A stretch of 64,000 bases of DNA from Erythrobacter sanguineus (GTDB taxonomy: Bacteria; Pseudomonadota; Alphaproteobacteria; Sphingomonadales; Sphingomonadaceae), in NCBI GenBank assembly GCA_945878845.1, contig CAMCUB010000011.1, forward strand, positions 1 to 64,000, given 5' to 3'. Below, one piece after another: positions 7,997-15,229 of the stretch; position 1 is the stretch's first letter; every line of letters begins with the position of its first letter. The notes beneath the pieces are model-generated. The model did not search any database. It was not told the DNA's origin and saw only the letters and a list, made by a program, of their open reading frames with translations. A program made the translations under genes and the position numbers.

Positions 7997-8416
7997 ATGA
8001 TCAAATGGACTGACAGCAGGAAGCGGATCGGGGCGCTGGCGCTCGCCGGGGCTGGCGTGGTGCTCGGTCTTGCCGTGCCGGTGCTGGCACAGGGCAACGG
8101 GCTCGCCATGCTCGGCACGCTCGCCAAGGGCGAATGGACCATCCGCCAGCGCAGCGGCGCGCCCGAACGCAAGATCTGCGTAAAGTCGGGCGCGGAGCTC
8201 ATCCAGCTGATGCACCGCGAAAGCGGGTGCAGCCAGTTCGTGGTCGAGGACGGAGCGGCGCGGGTGACGGTGCAGTATACTTGCCCCGGCAATGGCTATG
8301 GCCGCACCAGCATCCGCCGCGAAACGCCCGCGCTGGTGCAGCTCGAAAGCCAAGGGATCGAGAGCCGCACGCCCTTCCAGCTGACCGCCGAGGCGCGCCG
8401 CACCGGCACGTGCTGA
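7997..8416 (+). CDS. secreted DUF3617-like protein
   Basis: Signal-peptide-like N-terminus; GEWTIRQRSGAPERKICVKSGAELIQLMH pattern. Confidence 0.65.
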   Translation: MIKWTDSRKRIGALALAGAGVVLGLAVPVLAQGNGLAMLGTLAKGEWTIRQRSGAPERKICVKSGAELIQLMHRESGCSQFVVEDGAARVTVQYTCPGNGYGRTSIRRETPALVQLESQGIESRTPFQLTAEARRTGTC

Positions 8417-8475
8417 CAGGGCCAGGCTGATGGGGCCGCATTGCCTTTGCGCGAGCCCATGATAGGGCCGCGAGG

Positions 8476-9168
8476 ATGACTGATCCCGCACAAACCCAGC
8501 CGCTCGCCGTGGTGCTGCTTTCGGGCGGGCTCGATTCGATGGTGACCGCCGCGTTGGCGCAGGAGGCGGGCTTCGCCGTCCACGCGCTGAGCGTCGACTA
8601 TGGCCAACGGCACAAGCTCGAGCTGCAATCGGCCGCGCGCATCGCGCAGAAGCTGGGCCTCGCGCGTCACACCCCGATCGCGCTTGACTTGCGGGCCTTC
8701 GGCGGATCGGCGCTGACCGACAGCATCGATGTGCCCAAGGGCGGCGTCGGCGACGACATCCCGGTGACCTATGTGCCCGCGCGCAATCTCGTGTTCCTTG
8801 CGCTGACGACGGCCTGCGCCGAGGCGGCGGGGGCGCGTGATGTGTTCATCGGGGTCAATGCGCTCGACTATTCGGGCTATCCCGATTGCCGGCCCGAGTT
8901 CATCTCCAGCTTCGCCGAAACCGCGCGGCTCGGCACCAAGGCGGGGGTTGAGGGCGCGCCGTTCACGATCCACGCGCCGCTCCAGCACATGACCAAGGCC
9001 GACATCGCCCGCGAATGCGCGCGGCTGGGGCTCGACCCGGCGTGGAGCTGGTCGTGCTATGATCCGACACCGGACGGTCTGGCCTGCGGGCTGTGCGACT
9101 CATGCCGTCTGCGGAAAAAGGGTTTTGCCGAGGCGGGTATTGTCGATAGCACCCGCTATAACGCCTGA
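8476..9168 (+). CDS. queC: 7-cyano-7-deazaguanine synthase
   Basis: [17 protein letters not shown]-loop, [24 protein letters not shown] zinc motif. Confidence 0.95.
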
Positions 9169-9216
9169 CCGGCCGCGCGCCGTTCTCAGACAAGTATAAG
9201 GGATAGGGGATCGATT

Positions 9217-10776
9217 TTGAGCGAGGACACCACGGCGGCGCCCGTCAGCAGCGAGGCGCCTGCGTCGGCCTACAGCTGGTATGTGCTGGGCGTGCTGGTT
9301 GTGGTCTACATCCTCAACTTCATCGACCGGCAGATTCTCTCGATCCTCGCGGTCGACATCAAGCGCGATCTGGCGCTGACCGACGGGCAGCTGGGCTTTC
9401 TGGGGGGCGCCGCTTTTGCGGTGTTCTACGCGCTGTTCGGGGTTCCGCTCGGCCGGTTGGCGGATCGTTGGCACCGGGTGCGGCTGCTGACCATCGGCCT
9501 GCTGCTGTGGTCAACGATGACCGCGCTGTCGGGCTTTGCGCGCAATTACCTCACCTTGTCGCTCGCACGCATGGGCGTGGGTGTGGGCGAGGCGACGGCG
9601 AGCCCGACCGCCTATTCGCTGATCTCGGACTATTTCCCCTCGCGCCAACGCGCCACCGCGCTCGCGATCTATTCCTCGGGATTGTATCTCGGGGGCGGGG
9701 TGTCGCTGCTGATCGGAGCTAAGATCTCGCAGGTGTGGGACGCGGCCTATCCGGGGGGTGGGATCGCCGGGCTTGTCGGCTGGCAGGCGGCGTTCCTTGC
9801 GGTGGGCGTGCCCGGCGTGATGCTCGCCATGTGGGTCGCCTCGCTGCGCGAGCCCGCGCGTCAGCCCGAAGCCGCGAGCGGGATGCGCCACCCGCTGGCG
9901 GATTTCTTCGTCGACCTGTCGATGCTGCTGCCGCCCTTCACCGTCCTCCACGCACTGCGGCGCGGGCCGATGGCGGCGCTGGTCAATGTCGCGATGGCCG
10001 CGGCGATGATCGGCTTTGCGCTGGTCATGATCAAGCTGACCAAGAACGTGCCCCAATGGTCGGCGATTGCCTTCGGCTATTACGCGGTGTTCTCGTGGGC
10101 CTCGACCCTGCGGCGCCATGATCCGGCGACTTTCCGGCTGATCTGGGGGACGCCGGCCTTCATCTGCACGGCGCTCGGCTACGGGCTGGTCTCGCTCGGC
10201 GCCTATGCGCTGGCGTTCTGGTCGGCGCCCTATGCGGAGACGGTGCTGAAGCTGCCCAAGGCGGAGCTTGCCTTCGTGCTCGGGGGGAGCGGGGCGCTGT
10301 CGGGCTTCCTCGGCGTGATCCTGGGCGGCCGCCTTTCCGACTGGCTGCGCGGGCGCAATCCTGCGGGGCGGATCCTTGTTGTGATGTTCGGGATTATCGC
10401 GCCGGTGGTGCCGATCTGGATCGGCTTCACCACCGAGATCCCCGTGCTGTTCTACGCGATGAACTTCCTTGCGGGGATGTTCGCGGCGACCGCGCTGGGC
10501 GCGGCAGCGGCGACCACGCAGGATCTGGTCCTGCCGCGGATGCGCGGGACGGCGACGGCCTCGTTCTTCCTCGCCACCACGCTCGTCGGGCTGGGGCTTG
10601 GGCCCTACATGGTCGGCGCGATCTCGGAGGTGAGCGGGAGCTTGCGAATCGGGGTGCTGTCGCTGATCGGGGTGGCGCCGATCTCGCTGGCGCTGCTGAT
10701 CTACGCTTACCGGACGCTGCCCAAGGCGGAAGCGACGATCGCCGAGCGCGCCGCGGCGGCAACGCGCGGGGCCTAG
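9217..10776 (+). CDS. MFS transporter (spinster-like), TTG start
   Basis: Multiple TM segments, FIDRQILSILAVDIKRDLALTDGQLGFLGG, GRLADRWHRVRLL. Confidence 0.88.
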   Translation: MSEDTTAAPVSSEAPASAYSWYVLGVLVVVYILNFIDRQILSILAVDIKRDLALTDGQLGFLGGAAFAVFYALFGVPLGRLADRWHRVRLLTIGLLLWSTMTALSGFARNYLTLSLARMGVGVGEATASPTAYSLISDYFPSRQRATALAIYSSGLYLGGGVSLLIGAKISQVWDAAYPGGGIAGLVGWQAAFLAVGVPGVMLAMWVASLREPARQPEAASGMRHPLADFFVDLSMLLPPFTVLHALRRGPMAALVNVAMAAAMIGFALVMIKLTKNVPQWSAIAFGYYAVFSWASTLRRHDPATFRLIWGTPAFICTALGYGLVSLGAYALAFWSAPYAETVLKLPKAELAFVLGGSGALSGFLGVILGGRLSDWLRGRNPAGRILVVMFGIIAPVVPIWIGFTTEIPVLFYAMNFLAGMFAATALGAAAATTQDLVLPRMRGTATASFFLATTLVGLGLGPYMVGAISEVSGSLRIGVLSLIGVAPISLALLIYAYRTLPKAEATIAERAAAATRGA

Positions 10777-11038
10777 AGCGTCGTGCAGCCGGGTGGGTTC
10801 ACCTGGCGAATCGGATAGACGCGTAGAATCAACGACCGCGCGAGCGGCAAGTCTCCAGACACCCAAGAGCGTGCCCGGCCGTGCGGGGTTTTGCCCGCGC
10901 GACGGCGCGCGCTTTAGTTTGCGGGTGGTGGGGATGGCACGACGGCACGCGGTCAGCCGATGATCGCTCACGGCAGTTCGGGCGAGTGGCCCTGGCCGAT
11001 CCGGCTAGCGCAGTGCGCGTGGATCGGCAGCCGGCAAC

Positions 11039-11067
11039 AAAAAAGGGGCCGGATCGCTCCGGCCCCT
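11039..11067 (-). terminator. intrinsic terminator of the ompA-like gene
   Basis: Perfect 9-bp stem ggggccgga-tcgc-tccggcccc flanked by aaaaaa on + (U-tract on the - transcript), 26 bp past the stop. Confidence 0.85.
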
Positions 11068-11092
11068 CTTCGTGTTCCGTAGGAACCCGGAC

Positions 11093-12247
11093 TTACATGC
11101 CCGAACCCGGGCCGTAGGTCACTTCCACGCGGCGGTTCTGCGCTTCGCGCACACCGTCGGCGGTCGGGACGCGCGGCTTGGTTTCGCCGAACGACTGGCC
11201 AGTGATGCGTGCCGAAGGGATGCCGCGACCGCTCAGGTAGGCGGTGACCGCCTTGTTACGACGATCGGCCAGGCCTTCGTTGTACTTGGTGCTGCCCGAA
11301 CGGTCGGTGTGACCGGCCAGCATCACGCTCGCCGTGCCGCAGTTGGCATAGGCGGTGACGGCGCTGTTGAGGATGCCGGCAGCTTCCGACGTGATGTCCG
11401 ACTTATCGAAGTCGAAGAACACGATGTACGGACCCGTGTTGCACGCAACCTTGGGGGGCGGCGGCGGCGGGGGCGGCGGGGGCGGCGGGGGCGGAGGCGG
11501 GGGCGGCGGGGGCGGGGTCACCGCAACCGGATCAACCACCGGCGGCTCTTCGCTACCGAAGTTGTAGGTGATCGAGCCGAGCAGCGAGTGCGAGGCCATG
11601 CTCGTGTTCAGATCGCGGCCGAACGGATCGACGAGGTTGATGTCGGTCGCTCGGAAGTAGCGATACTTCAGGCCGACGTCCCATGCATCGCTGATCGGGG
11701 CGCGGATGCCCGCGAGCAGCTGCCAGGCGAAGCCGGTGTCCGAATCGCTCCAGACGCCCGGGCCGTTGGCGTTCACGCGGCCGTCCATGTCGACGCGGGC
11801 CACACCCACACCGCCACCGACGAAGCCCTGCACGCTGTCGTCATCGCCGAAATCGACGAGGCCGTTGATCATGAAGCTCAGCGCGTTCACTTCACCTAGC
11901 GCGTCGCGCGTGCCGGAGAAACGCGTGAAACCGCCCGGCGCGCTCGCCAGCGGGTTGTTCGCGAGGCCCTGGCTGCCGCCGGTCACTTCCGTGAGGTCGG
12001 CCGCACGGTAGCTGGCTTCGGCTTCGAGGCGGAAGCCGCCGAAGTCATAGCCGACAAGCCCGCCGAAATCGTAGCCGGTGTCATAGTTGGCCGCTGCATC
12101 ATCCGCAGCAGCGTCGACATCGATCGACTGGTCCTGGACCACCATGACGCCGCCATCACCCTGAATATACCACTGGCCGTCGCGGGCCATGGCGGGTGTG
12201 GTCAGCGCGGTCGAGGCCATCGCCATTCCAATGACGAGTTTGCGCAT
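11093..12247 (-). CDS. OmpA family outer membrane protein with polyproline linker
   Basis: Signal peptide MRKLVIGMAMASTALTTPAMA, beta-barrel, ~21 consecutive Pro codons, OmpA C-domain YIVFFDFDKSDIT...GHTDRSGS...NRRVEV. Confidence 0.93.
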   Translation of the reverse strand: MRKLVIGMAMASTALTTPAMARDGQWYIQGDGGVMVVQDQSIDVDAAADDAAANYDTGYDFGGLVGYDFGGFRLEAEASYRAADLTEVTGGSQGLANNPLASAPGGFTRFSGTRDALGEVNALSFMINGLVDFGDDDSVQGFVGGGVGVARVDMDGRVNANGPGVWSDSDTGFAWQLLAGIRAPISDAWDVGLKYRYFRATDINLVDPFGRDLNTSMASHSLLGSITYNFGSEEPPVVDPVAVTPPPPPPPPPPPPPPPPPPPPPKVACNTGPYIVFFDFDKSDITSEAAGILNSAVTAYANCGTASVMLAGHTDRSGSTKYNEGLADRRNKAVTAYLSGRGIPSARITGQSFGETKPRVPTADGVREAQNRRVEVTYGPGSGM

Positions 12248-12416
12248 TTCCGAAATTCCCCTTTGCTTAAACTTGAGGCACGAGCCGTCTCTATCTTTTC
12301 CCCCCGCGCGAGGCAAGCAATCAATGCCCCTCGGGTGTTGCAAGAATGTCGCTGAAAGGGCCTTGTGGAAAAAAATGTATCTGCAAAAAGGTACGGTAAT
12401 CCGCCATTCGTGCTTC

Positions 12417-12827
12417 TCAGGGGGTGGGCGCGGCGAGCACACCCATGGTCTGGAGCGCCGCGATCAGAGCGGTCAGCGCGCTGCGCGCCTGGACGTCAAT
12501 CACCGTGCCGCCGGCCGGCACGGCGACGACTGCGGCCGGCTGCCATTGCGACCGGAAGATGACCAATCTGGTCGCCGCCCGGTCGAACACCACCATTCCT
12601 TCGGCCGGTGCGACGAAATGCCAGGCACCGGCGACACGGACCGCGAGGCAATTCTCCTGCCCTGCCCAGGCCCCCGTAGCGGTCGCGGTCACCCGATAGC
12701 ACGCTCCGTCAGCGGCGCTCGCAGGCGGGGCGGGCTGCGAGGCGGTCACCGCGCGGGCGTGCAGCGCGTCAAGCAGGCACAGCGCCTCGTTGACGAAGAA
12801 CTCCTTCTGGGCCTGCCCGGCAAGCAT
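12417..12827 (-). pseudogene. 3' portion of GTA-type DUF2793 gene (N-terminus missing)
   Basis: GQAQKEFFVNEAL...GACYRV...GAWAGQENCLAV...GAWHFVAPAEGM matches the DUF2793 pattern; lacks the usual upstream residues. Confidence 0.75.
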
Positions 12828-13311
12828 GGCTGTGTTGCGGCCCGCGCAGCGCCTCGGGCTCGGCGGCCGAGAACAGCTGCGCCTGCGCCCCGTTCTCGAA
12901 CCGGACGCGGTGGAGCGAAGGCTCGAAATGCGGCTTGTGGCCCGGACGGCAGATCGCCAGTAGCCCGCTATCGCCCTCGACCATCACCGCGCGCGCCTCC
13001 GCCAGCGAGGAGGAGACGAGTGCGATCCGCGCGTCGGGATTGCTGTCCGCGATCATCCGCACCCATTCGGCACCCGCCCGGGTCTTGCCGAAGCCGCGCC
13101 CGGCCATGATCATCCACACCCGCCAGTCGCCCGGTGGCGGCAGCTGGTTCTCGCGGGCGGCATACTCCCAGAGGTAGGCGAAGCTGTTCTTCTGGTCCTG
13201 ATCCAGTTCCTCGGTCAGCTCGCGGCAAACCCTTTCACCAACGGCTTTCTTGCCTTCGTCCTTCTCCTGATCGACCATCTGGCCGATCATCTCGTCATAG
13301 GGTCCGCTCAT
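12828..13311 (-). pseudogene. 5' fragment of phage/GTA large terminase gene
   Basis: Walker A MAGRGFGKTRAGAEWVRMIA, LVSSSLAEARAVMVEG, SAAEPEALRGPQHSHA; then shifts into another frame and ends. Confidence 0.85.
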
Positions 13312-13784
13312 CCGCCTTGCCCTTCGGCAGCGGCCTTCTCGCGGGCGATGCGGCGGCGGATGTCCTCGATCTTGCGGTCGATCGAGGCGCGGACCTCGGC
13401 GGCGCTGACGTCGCGCACCTGGCTGGCCACGCGCCCCGCGCTGTCGCGGTGGGCGGCGAGCAGGCGGATGGCGTTGGCAAAGTCGAACTTCTCGCCGTCA
13501 CCGGTCTTGGCGTCGCCTTCGCGAAGGCGGCGGATGACTTCCATTTCGAGGCCAAGATAGCCATCGGCGAGCGCTGCCTGCCAAGCGCGGGCAAAATCAG
13601 GCTCGTCGCGGCGGGCCTGACAGGCCTCGGCGATGCTCACCCCGGCATTGCCCGCAGCGCGCTCGAGGTTCGAGGTCGCGCTCAGGGTGTCGAGGAACCG
13701 CTTCTGCCAGTGCTTTCCGGAGGCGGTGCTTTCGCTGCGGGAACGGGCAGGCACGTTGCTGGCCATCGGCACCACTCCTTGCAC
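13308..13784 (-). CDS. GTA/phage small-terminase-like protein (start likely MASNVP, 13766)
   Basis: FLDTLSATSNLERAAGNAGVSIAEACQARRDEPDFARAW...FDFANAIRLLAAHRD pattern; 4-bp overlap with terL start. Confidence 0.7.
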   Translation of the reverse strand: MQGVVPMASNVPARSRSESTASGKHWQKRFLDTLSATSNLERAAGNAGVSIAEACQARRDEPDFARAWQAALADGYLGLEMEVIRRLREGDAKTGDGEKFDFANAIRLLAAHRDSAGRVASQVRDVSAAEVRASIDRKIEDIRRRIAREKAAAEGQGG

Positions 13785-13990
13785 GAACGGAAGCGGGCGG
13801 CGCTTCCCGGGGGAAGGCCGCCCGCTGGCGACTCGCTATTCCTGGATGATGCCTTCTGATAACCAAAGAGCGTGACGATGTCAAGGAAAATAACCATTCA
13901 GGTTAATTAACACTGCCACCGGACGCGCGAGAACAAGCGGCATGGGCTGTAGAAGCGCCAAGCCGCAGCAATGCCCGATTGTATCTGAGC

Positions 13991-15229
13991 CTAGATAATC
14001 CCGATCGCCCTGCCGGCGCGTTCGAACATGCCGAGGATGGTCTGGACCTGCTCGGCCGAATGCTCCGCGCACAGCGAGCAGCGCAGCAGTGTCATGCCTG
14101 CCGGGGTCGCCGGAGGACGGGCGAGGTTGACGTAGAGGCCCTCCTTCAAAAGTGCCTCCCACATCATCGCGCCTTTCTCAAGATCGGGCATGATCACCGC
14201 GATGATCGCGCTCTGGGGGGTTTCGGTGCCGAGCTGGAAGCCCAGCGCCTTGAGGCCGCCATGCAGCGTGCGGCTGTTCTCCCACAGGTGCGCGCGCTTG
14301 TTGCTGCCGTGCATCAGCTTGCGGATCGAGGTCGCCGAGCTCGCCATCACGCTCGGCGGCAGCGCGGCGGTGAACACGTACGGCCGGCACACCAGCCGCA
14401 GCACTTCGAACTTGGGGTGGTTGGAGACACAGAAGCCGCCAACAGTCCCGACGCTCTTAGAGAAGGTGCCGATGATGAAATCGACGTCGTCGATGACGCC
14501 CTGTTCCTCAGCCACGCCGCGGCCATGTTCGCCGATGAAGCCCATCGAGTGCGCCTCGTCGACCAGCACCATCGCGCCGTGGGCCTTGGAGATGCGCACC
14601 ATTTCCTTGAGCGGCGCGACATCGCCCATCATCGAATAGACGCCCTCAAGCACCACCAGCTTGCCCGCGCCTTCTGGGACACGCTTCAACCGCTTTTCGA
14701 GCGCCTCGACGTCATTGTGCTTGAACGGCACCACCTCGGCGTTGCCCATCGCGCAGCCGTCCCAGATCGAGGCGTGGCTGTCGATGTCGAGGATGATGTA
14801 ATCGCCCTTGCCCGCCAGCGTCGAGATGATCCCGAGGTTCGCCTGATAGCCGGTCGAGAAGACCATCGCGTGGTCCATCGCGTAGAATTCGCGCAAGGCC
14901 GCTTCGACATCGCGGTGATCGCGGAAGGTGCCGTTGAGCACGCGGCTGCCGGTCGTCCCAGCGCCAAAATCCTGCATCGCCGCCTGCCCCGCCGCGATCA
15001 CGTCCGGGTCGAAGGTCATGCCCATGTAGTTGTAGGTGCCAAGCAAAATGGTATCGCGCCCGTTGCAGATCGCGCGTGTGGGCGACAGCACCTGCTCCAT
15101 CACGAGGTTGAACGGATCCTCCACCCCGGCAGCGAGCAGCTGCTCGCGGGTCTGGATGATCGGATCGAACTTGGCGAGCAGGTCGACAGGTTCGGCGGCG
15201 GTCGTCGTTTCGTTCATGGCCGTTGCCAT
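13991..15229 (-). CDS. spt: serine palmitoyltransferase (alpha-oxoamine synthase)
   Basis: ILLGTYNYMGMTFDP, GTTGSRVLNGT, LVDEAHSMGFIGEHGRG, GTFSKSVGTVGGF (PLP Lys). Confidence 0.9.
   Translation of the reverse strand: MATAMNETTTAAEPVDLLAKFDPIIQTREQLLAAGVEDPFNLVMEQVLSPTRAICNGRDTILLGTYNYMGMTFDPDVIAAGQAAMQDFGAGTTGSRVLNGTFRDHRDVEAALREFYAMDHAMVFSTGYQANLGIISTLAGKGDYIILDIDSHASIWDGCAMGNAEVVPFKHNDVEALEKRLKRVPEGAGKLVVLEGVYSMMGDVAPLKEMVRISKAHGAMVLVDEAHSMGFIGEHGRGVAEEQGVIDDVDFIIGTFSKSVGTVGGFCVSNHPKFEVLRLVCRPYVFTAALPPSVMASSATSIRKLMHGSNKRAHLWENSRTLHGGLKALGFQLGTETPQSAIIAVIMPDLEKGAMMWEALLKEGLYVNLARPPATPAGMTLLRCSLCAEHSAEQVQTILGMFERAGRAIGII

Follow-up and report, generated by a model that had tools for sequence, protein, structure and literature searches.

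Alphaproteobacterial gene transfer agents (GTAs) of the RcGTA type are encoded by head-tail clusters that begin with terS and terL. GTA production is lethal and not self-transmissible, and its survival against non-producers is an open question (PMC10883770, PMC6209664). The DNA fragments carried are approximately 4-4.5 kb in size (PMC11841831), and non-producers make no particles (PMC6209664). Both GTA loss and cheater lineages have been discussed before: pseudogenised or lost GTAs occur in many lineages beside GTA-plus relatives, and it has been conjectured that such GTA-minus lineages are cheaters (Kogay and Zhaxybayeva 2024, PMC10883770). A related phenomenon is "chromosomal curing", that is, deletion by recombination, in which a shorter allele spreads via homologous recombination between shared flanks (Croucher et al. 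2016, PMC4774983), transformation being biased toward shorter alleles.

The locus considered here lies in a window of 64,000 nt of Erythrobacter sanguineus (contig CAMCUB010000011.1). It resembles the RcGTA-type cluster in its terS, terL 5' end and DUF2793 genes, and the full cluster is found at the same site in intact relatives. Unlike that cluster, it has lost everything between terL codon 163 and DUF2793, and no particle could be built from it. Below, the deleted form is called collapsed and the undeleted form intact. The collapsed form differs from the lineages of Kogay and Zhaxybayeva in that the deletion is register-identical across genera, coexists with the intact form within species and is not accompanied by decay. 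It differs from the targets of chromosomal curing in that the deleted region is a domesticated GTA cluster, and the transfer of the shorter allele is inferred. No description of a register-identical deletion across genera coexisting with the intact form was found in the open-licence literature searched.

Structure of the locus

Table 1. Features of the collapsed GTA locus and its flanks (coordinates in the window)
Feature	Coordinates	Strand	Evidence
terS (GTA small terminase), complete, 158 aa	13308..13784	-	match to PHROG terminase small subunit (1.3e-8); synteny with both intact and collapsed relatives
terL-derived part, codons 1-163, Walker A retained, truncated within the Walker B region (..GPQHSHA)	12823..13311	-	Terminase_6N, 3.3e-9; alignment to collapsed and intact relatives
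terL ORF overall	12769..13311	-	Terminase_6N, E 3.3e-9, profile positions 1-99 of 215 only
Deletion junction, exact base ambiguous inside the stretch	12820..12826	-	register identical in all collapsed loci
Out-of-frame tail of the terL ORF, 17 codons from DUF2793 DNA plus stop	12769..12822	-	
DUF2793 ORF (GTA tail fibre family), without about 20 N-terminal residues	12417..12827	-	PF10983, 8.3e-24; intact copy in G055
Left flank: gene for a PLP enzyme of the class I/II aminotransferase fold, conserved beside the locus	13991..15229	-	PF00155, 1.4e-50; synteny
Right flank: gene for an outer-membrane protein of the OmpA family, likewise conserved beside the locus	11093..12268	-	PF00691, 2.1e-16; synteny

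As in RcGTA-type clusters, terS and a GTA-type terL stand at the 5' end, in synteny with intact clusters. Their reading frames overlap by 4 bp (ATGA), and the Walker A motif GRGFGKTRAG of terL is intact; this part of the original prediction is confirmed by the PHROG and Terminase_6N matches. The 5' end of terL is indeed retained, but it extends to residue 163 (codon 12825-12823) and not to approximately codon 155 as had been estimated. The last 17 residues of the terL ORF (CRAGPEGVLRQRGAVPA) result from out-of-frame reading of DUF2793 DNA. The DUF2793 sequence follows in an offset frame, as expected, which is +1 relative to terL, and its ATG is provided by terL DNA (C-ATG-C). The suggestion that only the 3' end of this gene is left was wrong, as the match to PF10983 (83.7 bits, curated cut-off 27) covers positions 1-86 of 87, that is, nearly the whole domain. 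The intact protein in the relative G055 has 154 aa.

Compared with G055, the locus lacks everything from terL codon 164 to gp15 together with the N-terminus of DUF2793, and the full head-tail set (portal, capsid, tail, gp13-gp15) is absent between terL and DUF2793. Neither an intact terL of the GTA type nor gp15 occurs elsewhere in the genome. A second, unrelated large terminase of 452 aa is encoded outside the window, on contig C32 of the same genome. It adjoins an integrase and a primase/helicase-like gene, and this region (L049, positions 8282-14876) looks like a prophage.

Distribution of the junction and of the two forms

A first search covered 41 relatives and revealed several congeners with matches beyond residue 163; a wider search of 114 genomes of the genus yielded many more matches. 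In the locus-by-locus comparison, which leaves aside approximately 16 further terL-bearing genomes of the genus, the same junction in an identical register was found in 30 genomes (species) of Erythrobacter/Porphyrobacter. At the junction the terL part ends in CAY GCN T; a DUF2793 codon, usually for A, S or P, and GGN CAG follow, and the spacing is constant. Three genomes (G003, G053, G101) have substituted bases at unchanged spacing, and G064 has the same junction sequence with a frameshift deeper in DUF2793. In 30 other genomes of the genus terL is intact and the two sites are 12.55-13.9 kb apart, in agreement with the predicted loss of more than 10 kb. The flanks are alike in both forms (aminotransferase-terS-terL ... 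DUF2793-ompA-MFS), and intact clusters of other species occupy the same syntenic site. The gp15 gene was found in 0 of 30 collapsed genomes and in all six sister intact genomes tested, whereas GTA_TIM (PF13547) could not be used as a marker, since it is missing from intact relatives too.

The same register was observed at loci of Qipengyuania, Croceicoccus, Novosphingobium and Altererythrobacter; the GTDB genomes with species names include Qipengyuania intermedia and aquimaris, Croceicoccus ponticola, and Novosphingobium aquimarinum and aerophilum. In N. taihuense the junction occurs at spacing 9. Among 401 genomes of the order, which represent 85 genera, a degenerate junction pattern matched 33 genomes from 10 genera of a single family, and the reversed control pattern matched none. 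Since the junction recurs in dozens of genomes, many of them complete, it is neither an assembly error nor a chance effect, nor is it an event private to one lineage. It had been proposed that natural adjacency of terL and DUF2793 in relatives would speak against a deletion. Such relatives exist, but they carry the same deletion, and the adjacency is derived, as sister species and outgroup families have intact clusters at this site. The collapsed form is the intact form from which approximately 12.6 kb, reaching from terL codon 163 to DUF2793, has been lost in one register.

The two forms coexist within species, the intact one being known as a gene cluster from its sequence and not by particle production. 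The intact IMG/VR contig 3300043466_004587 (G473) is 100% identical to the collapsed genome G095 over 2728 bp on the left and 407 bp on the right. The G095 coordinates flanking the deletion are contiguous (4769/4770), and the two alleles differ by a clean 12,592 bp, in accordance with the prediction that a single deletion took the rest of terL and the portal, capsid, tail and baseplate genes. In a second pair, the intact contig 3300037462_000507 (G474) is 97.0% and 98.5% identical to the collapsed genome G014 on the two sides. Further scans of IMG/VR gave no additional conspecific pair. A third case is the metagenome-assembled genome (MAG) G109, where one contig ends at ..CATGCCTG, the final base being common to the collapsed and the usual intact sequence, and overlaps the collapsed contig by exactly 141 nt, like a de Bruijn graph fork at the junction. 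A further MAG contig (L139) stops at this base, too. The intact branch is not in the G109 bin, so this case is a fork at the junction base and not the intact sequence itself. On the evidence of the two pairs and of the fork in G109, the collapsed allele shares a population with candidate producers, defined by the intact gene cluster only. Many "viral" contigs of 13-17 kb in IMG/VR (L316-L420) are intact Sphingomonadales GTA clusters, some of which exactly match a GTA locus on the chromosome of a sequenced isolate.

Phylogeny of the two forms and the proposed exchange of alleles

The collapsed and intact forms are scattered in the trees of terS, the terL 5' part, DUF2793, the aminotransferase and ompA. 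The same holds for rpoB, which is at least 70 kb from the locus in the checked genomes having both on one contig. The rpoB tree requires 15 changes between the forms, at least nine of them forced by supported branches, and contains collapsed/intact sister pairs such as G021/G059, G088/G024, G126/G113, G074/G048 and G061/G011. A single vertically inherited clade of collapsed genomes is rejected on this tree (p-AU 5e-75). In both the linked trees and rpoB, the collapsed form sits scattered near the tips. Distances in interior regions of the intact clusters track those of the aminotransferase, of ompA and of each other (Spearman 0.72-0.87). Thus the intact form is the vertical state, and a genus that was ancestrally collapsed and later regained the interior is the less favoured reading.

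Near the junction the collapsed sequences follow their own sisters, odd motifs included: EPFINH is common to G088, G053 and the intact G024, and SGQ to G021 and the intact G059. After allowing for species distance, no consistent similarity specific to the collapsed form was found in 45-bp windows, the last 42 bp of terL lying outside these windows. The last shared alanine codon is GCT in 21 of 54 collapsed and 4 of 80 intact loci; however, this excess is not decisive as a mark of single origin, because the T can derive from the DUF2793 side.

Some loci appear to be mosaic. In G076, G001 and G056 (L102, L037, L118) terS and the terL 5' part disagree with the rest of the locus, as if this block had been exchanged by recombination; at the aminotransferase, DUF2793, the terL 3' part and mid cluster G076 differs from G001 by 6-13%, but its terS and terL 5' part are nearest to other species. 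On contig C177 of the MAG G093 (L108), identity to the window is 98% at the terL end and approximately 80% in DUF2793, which may be a mosaic collapsed allele or a chimeric bin.

On balance we favour the explanation that the GTA locus is dimorphic and that the window carries its collapsed form, a non-producing "cheater" allele whose flanks are refreshed by recombination and which is itself exchanged as a polymorphism. Rather than a one-off accident, the collapsed form appears to be a non-producer that is long-lived or arises again and again. Its putative non-producer and cheater role is suggested by the missing genes and by the literature (PMC10883770). Cells with this form would be unable to make GTA particles and would escape the lysis of producers. 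The 12.6-kb deletion would be beyond repair by one GTA fragment. Fragments from intact cells could nevertheless replace flanking sequence as far as the border of the deleted DNA. In this way terS, the terL 5' part and DUF2793 would stay typical of the species and free of decay, and the junction would remain. Carriage of the deletion allele by GTA particles themselves was considered and dropped: non-producers make none (PMC6209664), and so the allele must travel by other routes. Its passage from cell to cell probably relies on homologous recombination of another kind, such as transformation, with its bias toward shorter alleles. The allele would persist as a polymorphism, and the fixed register would reflect one old deletion.

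Two observations speak against such exchange: there is no sequence specific to the collapsed form beside the junction, and in the G095 pair the local intact allele can supply all junction bases, an outcome equally expected of direct re-excision. Moreover, persistence of one allele across genera would require long balancing selection or repeated introgression, which counts against the favoured explanation.

Breakpoints, constraint and alternative explanations

A tentative alternative, to which we give clearly less weight, is recurrent excision in a precise register, in which a recombinase or a break-and-join process repeatedly deletes the 12.6 kb from the local intact allele in independent lineages. 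The register is fixed, the G095 allele is an exact join of local intact flanks, and the scatter of undecayed collapsed loci near the tree tips also fits this reading. The crossover lies left of the Ala wobble position in the G095/G473 pair and right of it in the G014/G474 pair; such a difference of a few nucleotides in the same register is compatible with both excision and allele exchange. However, the two end sites are dissimilar. In 30 intact relatives the parental sites at the junction register match at 4.7 of 20 positions (background 5.3). They vary at wobble positions, with no DNA site conserved beyond the coding motifs, and no recombinase gene was found among the conserved neighbours of the locus. 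The unlike sites and the lack of a recombinase among these neighbours lead us to prefer allele exchange. It is possible, if doubtful, that the GTA cluster of this family is repeatedly removed by dedicated register-exact excision, or by template-directed conversion from deleted alleles, with producers continually shedding non-producers of a fixed genotype.

The same comparison contradicts the microhomology that had been suggested for the breakpoint. The exact overlap of the parental sites is 0.93 nt versus a background of 0.75 nt, and the suggestion that both parents could contain the heptamer ATGCTTG fails, as the intact sister reads CACGCCTGG and CTGTTTGCCGG.

Repeat homology is observed in a second, rarer deletion class, found in two distant lineages, G119 (L120) and G075 (L119). 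Here terL is cut at the same place as in the collapsed form and continues in frame into the C-terminal half of gp13 (..HACRAEFCGPGC..). An imperfect codon-phased repeat, GCCTGGTGCGACGAGATC / ACCTGCCGCGCCGAGTTC, is common to the two sites, with 10.6 of 20 matching positions (background 5.5). Deletions with other endpoints occur in G117, G019 and G049 and, judging by distance, in G100 and G106. Eight congeners (G050, G020, G090, G120, G127, G129, G062, G015) have a DUF2793 match and no strong match to this terL, and probably carry further deletion forms of the locus.

The name "collapsed", taken from the original prediction, suggests decay, but the retained genes are as constrained as in intact clusters. 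The frames of terS, the terL 5' part and DUF2793 are open in nearly all collapsed loci, and their dN/dS is as low in pairs of collapsed loci as in pairs of intact ones, although dS approaches saturation in several pairs. The two forms do not differ in how often conserved columns are violated, and Walker A is kept in all 28 collapsed loci compared. The frameshifts, stops and relaxed constraint of decaying pseudogenes are not observed, except in the broken loci G064, G088 and G004.

This constraint could also mean that TerS, the TerL ATPase fragment and DUF2793 form a functional mini-locus selected for a new role, for example interference with GTA or phage packaging. We consider this improbable. 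About half of the collapsed loci have ACG instead of the ATG closest to DUF2793, which speaks against translation of DUF2793 being generally required. Past the junction the terL frame runs on for random lengths, and three loci are disrupted. Furthermore, recombination with intact alleles yields the same low dN/dS, and a new role alone would leave the shared register and the lineage-specific flanks unexplained. Finally, the deletion itself is real, but a private, one-off, microhomology-mediated origin in this lineage is refuted by the junction shared among dozens of species and by the lack of excess microhomology, with the absence of decay also against it, and we regard it as highly implausible.

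The locus provides a defined and widespread putative non-producer genotype beside candidate producers, once with identical flanks. This makes the survival of GTA production against non-producers measurable, by the frequency of the junction in PCR, by fitness in competition, and by de novo formation or transfer in culture. A possible size rule follows as well, according to which GTA-minus defects shorter than the particle DNA would be repairable by the GTA itself, and a 12.6-kb deletion would not.
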